Positions 10,338-53,186 of a DNA stretch of 64,000 nucleotides are shown one piece after another. Made by a program: the position numbers and the translations under genes. The DNA is from Myxococcales bacterium (GTDB lineage: Bacteria > Myxococcota > Myxococcia > Myxococcales > JAKAPL01): assembly GCA_021783235.1 (NCBI GenBank), contig JAJXUD010000006.1, positions 1 to 64,000 of the forward strand. The letters run 5' to 3'. The notes beneath the pieces are model-generated. The model was not told the DNA's origin. It did no database searches and saw nothing but the letters and a program-made list of their open reading frames with translations. How positions within the stretch are numbered: the first letter of the stretch is position 1; each line of letters begins with the position of its first letter.

Positions 10338-10704
10338 CGAGGGGTTGCGACCAGTCGGGCGGGGGCAACCGGCTGCCCCCGCTCTGAAAGCCGATGTTGA
10401 GGCTCTGCAACCCGATGCCCCCGCTCTGCAACCCAATGCCCCCGCTCTGCAACCCGATGCCCCCGCTCTGCAAGCCGATGCCCCCGCTCTGCAAGCCGAT
10501 GCCCCCGCTCTGAAAGCCGATGCCCCCGCTCTCGATCGGCCTCGTGAGCCTCTCGTCCCCGCGCGAGGAGGGGACACCCCCGCTCGACGGCACGACGATC
10601 GGCCGCGCGGGGGAGCGGACCGGGCTCGCCGCGCCCTCTCCCGCGGACCGCCGGCCTGGCAGCGCCCCCCATGGTGGCTAACTTACACTCCGAAAGGAGG
10701 CGTC
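10338..10704. other. Intergenic region without a gene
   Basis: Between the terminator and the KGG gene I see only the 21-bp tandem array (10374-10538) and GC-rich flanks. Open frames on both strands here are periodic readings of the array or shadows. A Shine-Dalgarno AAAGGAGG at 10693-10700 belongs to the KGG gene. Confidence 0.6.
10374..10538. repeat. 21-bp tandem repeat, about 7.8 copies
   Basis: Units of the form GCCCCCGCTCTGCAACCCGAT start at 10374, 10395, 10416, 10437, 10458, 10479 and 10500, with a partial copy at 10521. Units alternate CAA-CCC, CAA-GCC and AAA-GCC variants; the second unit is more diverged (GTTGAGG). The 21-bp period keeps frame, giving APALQPD or SGGIGLQ heptads, but no ribosome site or start supports translation. 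Confidence 0.9.
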
Positions 10705-11055
10705 ATGGCCGAAAAGGGACACAAAGGCGAGATGACCGTCCGCGAAGCCGGCAAGATGGGCGGTGAAGTCCGCAAGGAGCAGCTCGGTCCCGAGGGCTAT
10801 TCGGAGCTCGGCAAGAAGGGCGGCGAGACCGTCGCCCGCGAGCGGGGCTCCGAGTTCTACTCGGAGATCGGCAAGGAGGGCGGCGAGGCCCGCAAGCGCG
10901 AGCTCGGCCCCGAAGGTTACAAGGAGCTCGGCCACCTCGGCGGCGAGGCGCGCAAGGAGGAGCTCGGCCCCGAGGGCTACGCGGCGCTCGGCCACAAGGG
11001 TGGTCAGCGCGTCAAGGAGCTCATCGCGGAGGGGAAGGCGAGCGAGAAGGAGTAG
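10705..11055 (+). CDS. KGG-repeat general stress protein (GsiB/LEA group 1-like hydrophilin)
   Basis: The product is 116 residues. AAAGGAGG five bases upstream fixes the start at MAEKGHKGEM. The protein is five or six tandem copies of a roughly 20-residue KGG motif: GxxGGExRKxELGPEGYxELG. Such proteins are extremely hydrophilic, heat-soluble and unstructured, and in Bacillus (GsiB) and plants (Em-type LEA) accumulate in desiccation or general stress. It is expected to be cytoplasmic. It is a single-gene unit between a terminator and the convergent cheB. Confidence 0.85.
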   Translation: MAEKGHKGEMTVREAGKMGGEVRKEQLGPEGYSELGKKGGETVARERGSEFYSEIGKEGGEARKRELGPEGYKELGHLGGEARKEELGPEGYAALGHKGGQRVKELIAEGKASEKE

Positions 11056-47516: not shown

Positions 47517-47554
47517 TCTCGATGCGCCACGACCACTCGAACCGGGAGCGCGAC

Positions 47555-47926
47555 TTGACCGAATCCATTGGCAGCCTCTTGACCCAGGACCACGATGAGA
47601 TCGACGCGCTGTTTCAGCGGGCCGTCGATGGCGATTCCGCCGCGCGCACGGCGTTCGAGGAACGGCTGCGCCTGCACATGCGGATCGAGGAGGAGATCCT
47701 CTTTCCTGCCCTCTCGGATACGCCGCTGGCCGTCCCGGCGCGCGTGATGGTCAAGGAGCACGACCTCTTGCGCGACCTGCTGGACAAGGACGATCTGGAG
47801 GCGCTGCCGAGCTGCCTCGGCTCGCACAACGTCAAGGAGGAGAACGTGATCTACCCCGCCTGCGAGGGGCCGACGTTCGCCCCGCAGCTCGCGAAGGTCC
47901 GGGAGGCACTCGCCGCCAGGCGCTAG
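47555..47926 (+). CDS. Hemerythrin-like diiron protein
   Basis: The product is 123 residues from TTG (47555), chosen because GGGAG lies 7-11 nt upstream and because the sigma-54 promoter would begin transcription past the ATG at 47522; with that ATG it would be 134 residues. A four-helix hemerythrin domain shows ligands in QDHDEIDALF, LHMRIEEEILFP, VKEHDLLRDLL and SHNVKEENVIYP (H, HxxxE, H, HxxxE). Such proteins bind O2 or NO or repair Fe-S clusters. Confidence 0.85.
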   Translation: MTESIGSLLTQDHDEIDALFQRAVDGDSAARTAFEERLRLHMRIEEEILFPALSDTPLAVPARVMVKEHDLLRDLLDKDDLEALPSCLGSHNVKEENVIYPACEGPTFAPQLAKVREALAARR

Positions 47927-47959: not shown

Positions 47960-49012
47960 TCACGCGCCGTGCTCCGGGTAGAGCCCGAATTCGCGCATCT
48001 TCCGCCAGAGCGTCGTCCGGCCGATTCCGAGGATCTGCGCCGCCTCGCCCTGCCGCCCGCCGCAGGCCTCGAGGACGCGAACGACGTGCGCCCGCTCGAG
48101 CTCCGCGAGGGAGCAGAGCTCCGTCGCCGGCGGCGCCGCCGTCGTCGCTGAATTCGAAAGCTCTTCCGGCAGTTGGGCGAGGTCGACGTCCTCCCCACCG
48201 GAGAGCGCGGCGCCGTGCTTCACGGCGTTCATGAGCTCGCGGACGTTCCCCGGCCAGGCGTAGGTCTCGAGCGCCTGCCGCGCCGTGCGCGTGAAGCGGC
48301 CGGTCGGGTGTCCATCCTTGCGTAGGAACAGCTGCGCGAGCGGAAGGATGTCGGCGATCCGCTCTCGCAGCGGAGGGACGGTCAAGGCAAAGACCTTCAG
48401 CCGGTAGTAGAGATCCTCTCGGAAGCGGCCGTCGGCGATGCGACGCCGCAGATCCTGGTGAGTGGCGCAGACGATCCGCACGCTCACCGAGAACGAGGCG
48501 GTCTCGCCGACGCGGCGAAGCTCTCCGTCCTGCAGGATGCGCAGCAGCTTCGCCTGCAGCGGCAGCGGCATCTCGCCGATCTCGTCGAGGAAGAGCGTTC
48601 CGCCATCGGCGGCCTCGAAGAGTCCCCGCTTCAGTTGGGTGGCCCCGGTGAAGGCCCCCCGAGCGTGCCCGAACATCTCGGACTCGAGGAGGTCCGCCGG
48701 CAGGGCGGCCACGTTCACCGGGACGAACGGCCTCGACCGGCGCGGGCTGTTCGCGTGGAGCGCCCGCGCGAGCACCTCCTTGCCGCTCCCGCTCTCGCCG
48801 AGAAGGACCACCGAGGCGTCGGCGGCCGCGATCGCCGCCGCCCTCCGCATCAGGGCGCGCATCGCCTCGCTCTCGACGACGAGGCGCGAGCAGGTCCGCA
48901 GCCCGACCTCGGTCTCGGCCATGCCGCAGAGCCGGCACAACGCCGGGCCGCCGTCGAACGGGGACTCGCACATCGGGGAGGGAACGTTGCGCGGCATTTC
49001 AAACTGAAACAT
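47960..49012 (-). CDS. NtrC-type sigma-54 activator with an N-terminal Cys cluster
   Basis: The product is 350 residues. The AAA+ domain (about 45-280) has Walker [14 protein letters not shown], the sigma-54 contact loop [10 protein letters not shown], Walker [13 protein letters not shown] and the arginine-finger region [18 protein letters not shown] Fis-type HTH ends the protein ([21 protein letters not shown]). In place of a receiver or GAF domain there are about 40 residues with Cys 15, 26, 29 and 39 (C-x10-C-x2-C-x9-C), a possible Fe-S or NO-sensing site. Other possible starts are the Met codons at 48997 and 48973. Confidence 0.88.
48997..49009. promoter_or_regulatory. Predicted activator-binding dyad at the regulator gene start
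   Basis: TTTCAAACTGAAA is TTTCA-N3-TGAAA. It overlaps the first codons of the 49012 start, suggesting autoregulation and a downstream true start. The same core occurs upstream of the NnrS-like/uspA promoters. Confidence 0.45.
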
Positions 49013-49101: not shown

Positions 49102-49335
49102 CTAGCCGCCCACCTTCGCGATCCGGACGCGCCACTCGACCGGGCCCTCCGCGAGGTAGGTCCACGAGAATGTGCCCGGCCGCTCGATCTGGAACTGGTA
49201 CTGGAGCGGGCGGGGGTCGTGATCGTTGACCAGGACGAAGGCGTCCCCGGGACCGAGGGCGTCGAACTGCTGGAAGATGGTCGGGTGTTTCTTCGGCGGG
49301 GGAATGGGTCGGATGTCCAGTATCGATTCTGTCAT
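49102..49335 (-). CDS. DUF2249 protein
   Basis: The product is 77 residues, preceded by GAGGAGACC. It contains the DUF2249 pattern: [49 protein letters not shown]2249 proteins are TusA-like small folds often fused to or next to hemerythrin and nitrite/NO genes; the function is unproven. It follows the NnrS-like fusion gene by 32 bp and is likely co-transcribed with it. Confidence 0.88.
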
Positions 49336-49367: not shown

Positions 49368-51533
49368 TCAGGCGAAACCAAGCTCCTCCCGGGCCTCGGG
49401 GCTCATGCGCTCCGGCGACCAGGGCGGATCGAAGGTCACCGAAACGTCCACGTCCTCGACGCCCTCGAGGCCTCGGAGGATCTGCTCGACCCGCGCCTGG
49501 ATCGCGACGCCGGAGGGGCAGTTGGGGGAGGTGAGCGTCATCCGCACCCGCACGCGTCCTGGGGGTAGGACGTCCACGCCATAGACCAGGCCGAGATCGA
49601 CGATGTCGATCCCGAGTTCCGGATCGACGACGTGGTGAAGGACATCCAGGAGTAACGTGCCTTCGAGCGGCCGCCCGGACGCAGCAAGGGCAGGCGAGGT
49701 CTTCGGCTCGACCGGGACCCCGGCAGGATCGACCAGCGGCTCGGTCGACGGAGCCTCGCTCGACGCCGCACGCCGGAGCCGCTCCAGCCCGCAGGACTCT
49801 CGCAGCCTGGAGACCAGGGCGTCCACGTCGATGCCATGCATCCCGCACGCCTGTCGCAGGCTCACCGCACGAGCGAGCGTCTGCCGGGCGAGCGGGCTGG
49901 CGAGTTGGGTGAACCCGGCGTGGATCAAGACCGCGAGCGCCTCCGGGTAGGCCGTCACGAGATCGTGCACGTTGGCGTCGGCCTGGATGGCGAGCGGCCG
50001 CCGAGGCGACGCCTTCTGCTGCCCATTCTCAGCCGAGGCGCCGATCGTCTTGAGCAGGGACGCGCTCGCCAGCGCCACCCCGGTGGCGGCGACCAGCCCC
50101 GAGCAGGCGGAGACGTGGAGGAGCCAGGGCGCCCCCACCGACGCGACGACCTCTAGCTCGCGCATCAAGACTCCCGTGGAGATGAGCCAGGCCCCGGCGG
50201 TCCGCAGCGCCGGCCAGCGCAAGCTCACGCCGCCGAAGATGGGAACGATCCGGCCGGCCATCCCGAAGATCATGAGCGTCACGAAGCCAAGGGCGAAGGA
50301 GTGCCGAAGGCCGTCGAAGAGCAGGCCGGGGACGGGCGCCTCCGCCAGATCCAGCGCCCCGTACAGCGCGGCGAGCGCGGCGGCCACGAGCTCCCAGACG
50401 ACCGCTTGCCGGATGATCGTCGCGAAGCTCGGGTCCCCGCCGCCCGCGTGGCCTGCCCGCGCGCGCAGCAGCGAGGTGGAGGCCGCAAAGATCGCGATGG
50501 AGCCGCCGATCGCGAAGAGCCCGAGATCGAGGGCGACGGAGCCTGAGCGACGCTCCGGGAATCCTGCCCCGGCCACGCAGAGCGCCGCGCCAGCCTGCCC
50601 GAGCCACCAGGCGGCGCGGACCCCGCCGCGGTGCGGCGGCGGAAGCCCCAAGAAGGACCCGCCCATGCGAAGGATGAAGCCGTCGATGAAGGCGAGAACG
50701 GCGCCGAAGAGGACCGCGAGATAGAGCGGCTCGTGGAGGATCTGTCCGCCGCTCGAATCCTTCGTCCAGAGCGCCAAGCCCCCTTCCGCGACGAGGAGGA
50801 CGCCGGCGACGAGCCACCAGGCGAGGCCCGCCGCAAGGTATCCGTGGAAGGGCTCGAAGGGCCGCGGGGCCACGTGAAAGGTGGAGACCAGCGCCCAGGC
50901 GAAGCAGGCCAGCGCCACGAGTTGGAGCCCTCCCCCCGCGAACAGCGCAGCGGCCGTCCACGGCAGGAGCGAGCCGAACTGCCCGTAGCTCCGAACGAGG
51001 AGCCCCGCGAGGACCAGCCAGAAGCTCGCTTTGGCGGCCCCCAGGGGGCGCAGCGGCGTCCCGAGGAAGCGTGGGAGCGCGTGATAGGCCACGCCCATGA
51101 CGAACGGCAGGACGAAGCCGAAGAGCTGAAACGTGGCATGAACCCAGTTGTGCTCGGGGGGGAGGGTTCCGAGGCTCAGCTGGATGACCAGGAGGTTCGC
51201 GGCGCCGAACGTGGCGCCGAGCGTCAGGGTGCAGACGAGGGCCATCCGCAGGAAGCGCCGGTAGAGCGTGGCGGCTTGCGCCTCGGCGGCGGAAGTCTCG
51301 GCGCCGGCGGCGGGCGCCGAGGGCGATCGGATCGCCTCCTCGAGCGCCGCGAGCAGGCCATCGAGCGACACGCGGTGAACCGCCGCGAAGAGATCGAGCC
51401 GTTCGTCCGGCCCCGTCTGTCCGCCACAGCCGAGGAGGCCGTGCCGCTCGAAGACCGCGCCGGCCTGCGGAAAGCGGGAGAGAATCTCTCGAACGCTGTC
51501 GCTCGGCCCAAGGGCTGGGGAATCGCTCCGCAT
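49368..51533 (-). CDS. DUF1858 / NnrS-like 12-TM / DUF1858 / MIP18 fusion protein
   Basis: The product is 721 residues. Residues 8-65 form a DUF1858-type domain ([28 protein letters not shown]). Residues 95-505 are about 12 TM helices with His in the first ones ([28 protein letters not shown]), like NnrS or haem-copper subunit I relatives. Residues 520-580 look like a second DUF1858 ([18 protein letters not shown]), and 610-721 are a MIP18/PaaD-type Fe-S assembly domain ([27 protein letters not shown]). NnrS proteins are linked to NO resistance. This domain order is unusual. Confidence 0.85.
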
Positions 51534-51757: not shown

Positions 51758-51773
51758 TGGCACACGAGATGCT
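51758..51773 (+). promoter_or_regulatory. Sigma-54 promoter of uspA-nirK
   Basis: TGGCACACGAGATGCT matches TGGCACR-N4-TTGCW at all defined positions but one (A for the first T of TTGC), with exact -24 GG / -12 GC spacing. Transcription would start near 51784, 17 nt before the uspA ATG. Confidence 0.75.
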
Positions 51774-51800: not shown

Positions 51801-52250
51801 ATGAACTTTCCCCCAAAAAAGATCCTCGTCGCCACCGACTTCAGCGACTGCGCGAAGCACGCGATCGAGCTCGCGGCCTCGATTGCCCGCCAGGAGGGCG
51901 CGGCGCTCGGCCTCATCCACGTGGTCTCTTTCGCGGAAACCTTCGCGGACGGCATGTCCATCGAGGGCGGCTGGTCGGGGGACCTGCAGGGGCTCGCCGA
52001 CGAGCGCGCAGACGAGCTCCTGAAGGCGGAGAGCGACCGGCTGCGGGCCGCGGGGATCCGGGTGGAAGCGGCCGTTCGCCGGCAGGGCTCACCGTACCTC
52101 GCCGTGGCGGCCGAGGCCGCCAAGGGCGGCTACCAGCTCGTCGTCTGCGGGACCCATGGCCGAACCGGGGTCCGCCATCTTCTTCTCGGCAGCGTCGCCG
52201 AGGGAATCGTGCGTCACTGCAAGTGTTCGGTCCTCGTGGCGCGCGACTGA
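51801..52250 (+). CDS. uspA: Universal stress protein UspA family
   Basis: The product is 149 residues. KKILVATDFSDCAKHAIELA opens the domain and VVCGTHGRTGVRHLLLGSVAEGIVRHCKCSVLVAR carries the nucleotide-binding G-2x-G-9x-G(S) pattern, so it likely binds ATP. It is the first gene after the sigma-54 promoter and precedes nirK by 33 bp, suggesting that it acts in the nitrite/NO response. Confidence 0.92.
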   Translation: MNFPPKKILVATDFSDCAKHAIELAASIARQEGAALGLIHVVSFAETFADGMSIEGGWSGDLQGLADERADELLKAESDRLRAAGIRVEAAVRRQGSPYLAVAAEAAKGGYQLVVCGTHGRTGVRHLLLGSVAEGIVRHCKCSVLVARD

Positions 52251-52283
52251 GCCCCGCCGCACGCCATGAAAAGGAGAAACCCG

Positions 52284-53186
52284 GTGCGCTCGCCCCTCGC
52301 TCATGCCCTCGTGCCCCTTCTCGCCCTCGCTCTACCGGGGGGCGCCCGCGGCGCCGAATGGGCGCTCGCCGGCCAGCACGCCACCTGCGCCGATGGGCCA
52401 CGCACCCGAACCTTCACCCTCCGGGCCTCCGAAGGGGTGCGAGAGCTCGGGATGGGCCTTCGCGTCGACGGCATGACACTCGGCTCGCCGGGGCAGCCGA
52501 TTCCCGTGCTCGAGGCCTGCGAGGGCGACACCGTGACCCTGGGGCTCGAGAACACGGGCTCGATGGCCCATGGAATCGACTCGCACGCCTTCCGGATCGA
52601 CACCGGTCGGTTCGGACCCGTCAATCAAGGAGGCAAGCTCTCGTACAGAGGGGTGATGACGACACCGGGCGCCTTCATGTTCCACTGCGCCTCTGGGCCG
52701 GTGACGGACGTTCACATCAAGTCGGGGATGTACGGCGAGATGATCGTCTACCCTCGAAGGCCCTTTCGGCCCGCCCACGAGATCGCCGTCGTCCAGGGGG
52801 GGCTCTTCGGCGAGCCCGACGAGAACGGGCTCGTCCACATCGACTCCGGCCGAATCGCCCGCAACGACCCGTACACCATGATGTTCGATGGGAGGCTCGA
52901 GCACGAGACCGTGAAGGTCACACCGGGCCAGCTGGTCCGCGTCTACTTCGTCAATGCGGGACCGGGCTCGTCGGCCATTCACGTCATGGGAACGTTGCTC
53001 GACCGCTTCTATGCGAGCGGCAACCCGCGCAACGTCGAGTACGGCGTGCAGACCGGCCTCGTCCCCGCCGGCGGAGGCGCCGCCTTCGAATTCCGCGTCC
53101 CCGAGAAGGGGATGTACATGTTGGTGGACCACGACAACCTTCGGTTCTTGCCCTTCGGCTTCGGCATCGGCTTCATGGCCGACTGA
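52284..53186 (+). CDS. nirK: Copper-containing nitrite reductase-like protein
   Basis: The product is 300 residues from the GTG at 52284, favoured because AGGAG ends 7 nt upstream; an ATG at 52266 would add six. It has a Sec signal peptide. Two cupredoxin domains carry the copper ligands: AHGIDSHA (type 1 His, catalytic Asp, type 2 His), MFHCASGP (type 2 His, type 1 Cys), DVHIKSGMYG (type 1 His and Met), SAIHVMG and LVDHDN (type 2 His candidates). Nitrite would be reduced to NO in the periplasm. It is about 40-70 residues shorter than classical NirK. Confidence 0.78.
   Translation: MRSPLAHALVPLLALALPGGARGAEWALAGQHATCADGPRTRTFTLRASEGVRELGMGLRVDGMTLGSPGQPIPVLEACEGDTVTLGLENTGSMAHGIDSHAFRIDTGRFGPVNQGGKLSYRGVMTTPGAFMFHCASGPVTDVHIKSGMYGEMIVYPRRPFRPAHEIAVVQGGLFGEPDENGLVHIDSGRIARNDPYTMMFDGRLEHETVKVTPGQLVRVYFVNAGPGSSAIHVMGTLLDRFYASGNPRNVEYGVQTGLVPAGGGAAFEFRVPEKGMYMLVDHDNLRFLPFGFGIGFMAD

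Follow-up and report, generated by a model that had tools for sequence, protein, structure and literature searches.

A single open frame of 721 aa (positions 49368..51533 on the minus strand, stop codon within these coordinates) in a Myxococcales contig raises the question of why a 12-transmembrane (12-TM) core resembling NnrS should share one chain with two DUF1858-type domains and a MIP18-type domain, and what such a protein might do. We address it here in the context of the window, i.e., the whole 64,000-nucleotide stretch that was analyzed. From the N to the C terminus, the chain comprises a DUF1858-like domain, the 12-TM NnrS-like core, a DUF1858 domain, and a MIP18 domain (PF01883). Searches with the whole protein recovered this arrangement in both libraries, namely, DUF1858 in two stretches plus FeS_assembly_P in Pfam and the prismane-associated redox domain in two stretches plus the SUF-associated model in NCBIfam. 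A sequencing or assembly fusion of separate genes is ruled out by L004, an ortholog from another genus of the same family (genome G039) that matches along its full length (57% identity, residues 8-721) and carries the full order in one frame. Together with the open frame and the domain matches, this confirms the four-part fusion put forward in the preliminary description. An AlphaFold2 model based on a 50-sequence alignment (pLDDT 88.3, pTM 0.76) shows exactly 12 long core helices (residues 77-506), helical N- and C-terminal domains, and an α/β MIP18 domain, the last preceded by a low-confidence, probably flexible linker (residues 593-614; 49692..49757, minus strand; pLDDT <50).

When the segments were scored singly against profile hidden Markov models, the outcome was mixed: the C-terminal DUF1858 and MIP18 domains rose above their cutoffs, but the N-terminal domain and the core did not. 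The C-terminal DUF1858 domain (residues 516-574; 49812..49988, minus strand) scored 65.1 bits against a PF08984 gathering cutoff of 32.2 and resembles the solved structure 2fi0. The N-terminal DUF1858/DUF542-like domain (residues 11-69; 51327..51503, minus strand), which has a GCGG motif with C36 and is helical over residues 14-69 in the model, reached only 16.2 bits (E value, 0.011) alone; it is, however, the second DUF1858 stretch in the whole-protein Pfam and NCBIfam counts. Relatives display two clear DUF1858 copies (111 bits in L164 and 88 bits in L176). C36 is found in 21 of the 29 relatives that have a residue at this position, and neither cysteine of the two DUF1858-type domains is universal among relatives. 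As the N-terminal domain retains CGG without a CC pair and the C-terminal one lacks the CGG motif, the cysteine chemistry may be partial, to judge from these motifs.

The C-terminal MIP18/SufT-type domain (residues 629-720; 49374..49649, minus strand) retains intact DPE, DLGL, and TSPxCP motifs. The PF01883 match spans residues 629-699 and scores 71.3 bits alone (cutoff, 23.5), with TM0487 (1uwd; E value, 6.9e-25) as a solved relative, which bears out the earlier assignment of a MIP18/PaaD-type C terminus. The domain has all of the signature residues of the SufT/MIP18 family, whose SufT members function in Fe-S maturation (PMC4982691), but differs in forming the C-terminal end of a membrane protein and in scoring 96.8 bits with the SUF-associated assembly protein model TIGR02945, below its equivalog cutoff of 143.4. 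Fusions of DUF59 to DUF1858 have precedent in the S6 architecture (n = 4; PMC4982691). The RIC/YtfE/ScdA proteins likewise combine a DUF542/DUF1858-type N-terminal domain with NO stress; unlike them, the fusion chain lacks the di-iron hemerythrin domain, as the Pfam search of the whole protein gave no PF01814 match.

The affinity of the membrane core (residues 77-506; 50016..51305, minus strand) is less direct. Its size of about 400 residues and its 12 helices fit NnrS, but with PF05940 it scored only 9.8 bits (E value, 0.61), failing the gathering cutoff of 28. The ortholog reaches 27.4 bits over model positions 14-363 of 371, just short of the same cutoff, and relatives with the same bracketing domains pass it (62.6 bits in L176 and 56.2 bits in L178). 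It is because of these matches in the ortholog and in the relatives of like architecture that we regard the core as kin to NnrS. A stand-alone core copy in the window's own genome also passes PF05940, at 39.1 bits. The earlier description of an NnrS-like 12-TM core accordingly holds for topology and kinship but not by the core's own profile score; judged from such sequence matches, NnrS membership is claimed for the family and not for the window core by itself. The likeness to NnrS extends to aligned histidines in TM2 and TM10 and to the NO/denitrification context, whereas the three extra, presumably cytosolic domains set the fusion apart.

Structure comparison widened this relationship. In Foldseek searches of the PDB, the core matched the cbb3 oxidase subunit CcoN and NorB with a probability of 1.00 (E values, 1.7e-7 to 2.7e-6; target-normalized TM-scores, 0.67 to 0.72), and profile searches agreed weakly (CcoN, E value of 9.6e-4; NorB, E value of 0.023). 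The modeled core thus has the fold of subunit I of the heme-copper oxidases, with which it shares the predicted 12 TM helices. The window protein gave no significant PF00115 match, but some relatives did, including one above the cutoff (L164, 42.9 bits). Only two core histidines, H132 in TM2 (51138..51140, minus strand) and H411 in TM10 (50301..50303, minus strand), are conserved in all 40 of 40 relatives. In hhalign comparisons, they align with the TM2 histidine and with the second histidine of the HGH motif of NorB, which are the ligands of the low-spin heme b in cNOR. They also align with histidines of an NnrS-like protein (in WHAHEM and MHVLTVGA); both reference proteins are encoded on Sinorhizobium (S. 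meliloti) pSymA and, the record being unannotated, had to be recognized from their sequences. The position of the heme b3 histidine is occupied by L409 in the window core, and neither hhalign nor conservation across the 40 relatives revealed a CuB/FeB histidine set. On this evidence, the core is predicted to keep the low-spin heme pair of subunit I but, in contrast to CcoN and NorB, to lack the ligands of the catalytic heme and of CuB. The positive-inside charge bias (14.0 K/R per sequence on the side of the termini versus 4.5 on the other) suggests that both termini are cytosolic.

These features bear on the idea that the core is an NO reductase-like enzyme, converting NO to N2O in place of a missing NorB. 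The NorB-like fold and the adjacent nirK gene are compatible with such a role, as are the only two PF00115 genes found in the window genome, which, at 462 and 430 bits, resemble classical oxidases in score. However, the loss of the catalytic heme and CuB/FeB ligands implies that the core should not reduce NO itself, and we consider this activity highly improbable.

The genes around the fusion point to denitrification. Divergent from it lie a universal stress protein gene (51801..52250, plus strand; PF00582) and a gene for a NirK-type copper nitrite reductase (52266..53186, plus strand), the product of which scored 107.7 bits with TIGR02376, below the equivalog cutoff, and matched 4kns with an E value of 1.9e-31, the Cu-ligand residues being intact in the alignment. 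Upstream of this pair is a sigma-54-type promoter-like site, TGGCACACGAGATGCT (51758..51773, plus strand; one mismatch), which alone is no evidence of function; candidate sites of this type near the start codons of the fusion and hemerythrin genes fit those starts poorly and were rejected. Downstream of the fusion follow a 77-aa DUF2249 protein (49102..49335, minus strand; PF10006, 103.8 bits), syntenic with the ortholog's locus, a sigma-54 activator with a short Cys-rich N terminus (47960..49012, minus strand, start at 49012 inferred; PF00158, 229.8 bits), and a hemerythrin-domain protein (47522..47926, plus strand; PF01814, 47.6 bits). In the genome of the ortholog, a nirK-type gene (59% identity) lies directly upstream of the fusion and a DUF2249 gene (69% identity) downstream, with a sigma-54 activator divergent from them. 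Farther away, the window contains tandem repeats of 85 bp (8.4 copies, 92% matches; 587-1297), 21 bp (8 copies; 10365-10532), and 60 bp (10790-11019).

Sigma-54 activators adjoining such cores in the window and in L134, L135, L139, L145, and L199 have conserved cysteines (C...LCxxC...CSR) in their short N termini; in the L133 copy, only the CxxC remains. No recognized sensor domain was found in these core-adjoining activators. This raises the prospect of a membrane NO/redox sensor, in which the heme core would read NO or the redox state of the quinone pool and signal via DUF1858/MIP18 to the neighboring activator. The fact that activators whose short N terminus is rich in Cys adjoin related cores in several genomes of two phyla, the want of a recognized sensor domain in the window activator itself, and the effect of DrpB, a DUF1858 protein from Thermus read as a regulator, on denitrification gene expression (PMC6282519) are all in keeping with it. 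On the other hand, the conserved N-terminal cysteines of the activator could sense unaided, an Fe-S assembly domain would be an odd signaling output, and cores without a linked activator exist (L206, L203, and L204). We therefore deem a sensory role unlikely.

Comparable loci in other genomes contain the same components as separate genes. In L141, an RIC Fe-S repair protein, MIP18, DUF2249, and a membrane protein follow one another on a single strand; RIC adjoins MIP18 beside a similar membrane protein in L137; and in L139, a sigma-54 activator is divergent from MIP18-DUF2249, which is followed by a similar membrane protein. These membrane proteins (L139:5580-6698, L141:3957-5135, and L137:4546-5799) had no Pfam or NCBIfam match; with hhalign, those of L141 (E value, 1e-5) and L139 (E value, 9e-7) align to the core, and that of L137 hardly does. 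L145 has a stand-alone core transcribed divergently from a sigma-54 activator, and farther along lie hemerythrin and nosZ-type genes; in L206, a three-part relative lies within a nar operon and is followed by moaA. Together, these loci indicate that the parts fused in the window occur as separate neighbors in other NO/denitrification loci. The nar-type operon of the last (L206:2537-11914) also includes molybdopterin, Fer4, and NarJ-type genes and further radical SAM genes.

Such associations could also be read as those of a maturation factor for one denitrification enzyme, delivering electrons, iron, or clusters to a neighboring metalloenzyme (nitrate, nitrite, or N2O reductase) rather than acting in general repair. 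The placement of the L206 relative between narH/narJ-type genes and moaA and the nirK-fusion-DUF2249 order in the genome of the ortholog would suit this, as would the observation that Thermus lacking DrpA/DrpB contains nitrate reductase protein of low activity (PMC6282519). Yet the linked enzymes vary from genome to genome (nirK, nar, nosZ, and Rnf-like genes), for which shared NO stress is a better explanation than one client, and NirK requires copper, not Fe-S. Dedication to a single enzyme hence seems rather unlikely.

We next consider how widely the architecture is distributed. The preliminary description implied that the DUF1858-bracketed NnrS core is exceptional; it is not, since the three-part unit forms a family in the Planctomycetota. 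Although sporadic in the window's phylum, it has relatives in 26 of 197 genomes of the Planctomycetota (the phylum of G228), nearly all with DUF1858-core-DUF1858 and some with an extra DUF542 domain. Two copies of the unit occur in ten genomes of the Planctomycetota group (L164-L173 and L183-L192), nine of which encode the hydrazine synthase alpha subunit of anammox; the single-copy genome G821 encodes it as well. Closer to the window genome, G089 has DUF1858-core-DUF1858 without MIP18, G156 has a DUF542-type N-terminal domain plus the core, and other genomes of the class have stand-alone cores. By contrast, only two genomes, the window genome (G000) and that of the ortholog, showed the added MIP18 domain. 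Hence, the claim of an unusual architecture survives only in this last element, which alone looks lineage specific. A scan of genome contigs was dominated by stand-alone MIP18 matches, and plasmid records gave no match beyond the MIP18 level. At an E value of 1e-32 and with no positive control, there was no match among the sampled genomes of the phyla of Rhizomicrobium (Pseudomonadota; 398), HyVt-553 (285), and "clean1828" (200). The open-access literature on NnrS with DUF1858, anammox, and heme-copper oxidases, which was the scope of our survey, yielded no description of the architecture or of the DUF1858-NnrS-DUF1858 family. The parts are known, and the addition of MIP18 is new to the DUF1858-NnrS-DUF1858 family.

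The restriction to two related genomes might also reflect a neutral gene fusion, in which MIP18 was joined via stop codon loss and substitutes for a missing stand-alone SufT. Indeed, no stand-alone SufT was found in either genome, where the other PF01883 match falls in Mrp-size frames (368 to 398 aa) and assembly gaps are possible; in six relatives (G089, G038, G087, G013, G005, and G131), a further PF01883 protein accompanies the Mrp-like one. In a tree of MIP18 domains, the two fused domains group together (support, 0.78; deeper branches are weak), but their nearest relatives, at weak support, include short MIP18 proteins adjoining DUF2249. This, along with the neighborhood of MIP18 with RIC/DUF2249 in L141 and with DUF2249 in L139, indicates a functional link, and the DPE, DLG, and Cys residues of the fused domain are intact. 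A neutral origin is accordingly very unlikely.

The reading that we prefer, with a probability of roughly 0.4, is that the fusion is an inner-membrane heme b protein of the NO/denitrification response, the tethered cytosolic domains of which protect or repair Fe-S or iron pools. Under this proposal, the core would be a degenerate subunit I of the NnrS type with one bis-histidine low-spin heme (H132/H411). NO made by the neighboring NirK would damage iron or Fe-S centers, the heme core would sense NO or supply electrons, the two DUF1858/DUF542-type Cys domains would carry thiol/iron chemistry in the cytosol, and the flexibly tethered MIP18 domain would hand iron or clusters to client proteins. 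The NirK, DUF2249, sigma-54 activator, and hemerythrin context, partly conserved with the ortholog, and the lack of a detected stand-alone SufT in both fusion genomes count in its favor. The preliminary description had likewise coupled a heme/NO-type core to Fe-S maturation in one chain; domain, family, fold, and neighborhood evidence uphold the union of the parts, and domain anatomy and gene context suggest the coupling itself. Against the protective role stand the possibly partial cysteine chemistry, the three-part relatives that manage without MIP18 and the interpretation of DrpB as a regulator. NnrS is reported to contain copper, to which a core without CuB ligands is a poor fit, and this too counts against it. 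The term used for NnrS is "heme/copper-containing" (PMC9409073).

NnrS does not remove NO but shields the iron pool from the formation of dinitrosyl-iron (PMC9246220; PMC11526790), RIC proteins supply iron to damaged Fe-S proteins for cluster repair (PMC9268430), and DUF1858 genes belong to denitrification regulons (PMC6710368; PMC6282519). DrpB (DUF1858-DUF2249-DUF2249) similarly combines DUF1858 and DUF2249 in a nitrate respiration locus, but it has no TM core, and DUF2249 is encoded by a separate gene in the window.

How NnrS protects iron and Fe-S from NO has been an open question since the removal of NO was excluded, and the fusion offers a direct and testable hint, together with the same parts occurring as separate neighbors elsewhere. 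Fold comparison groups NnrS-type cores with the heme-copper oxidases, with retention of only the low-spin heme site. More broadly, we tentatively raise the possibility, doubtful as it still is, that DUF1858-NnrS-DUF1858 proteins represent an unrecognized family of membrane devices for iron/Fe-S protection built on a retired heme-copper oxidase core, with two copies in the majority of the sampled anammox genomes. One member in the window's family would have gained its own Fe-S delivery domain, so that a single chain would span everything from NO stress through to the repair of clusters. The two three-part copies in genomes with hydrazine synthase suggest a role in organisms living on free NO.
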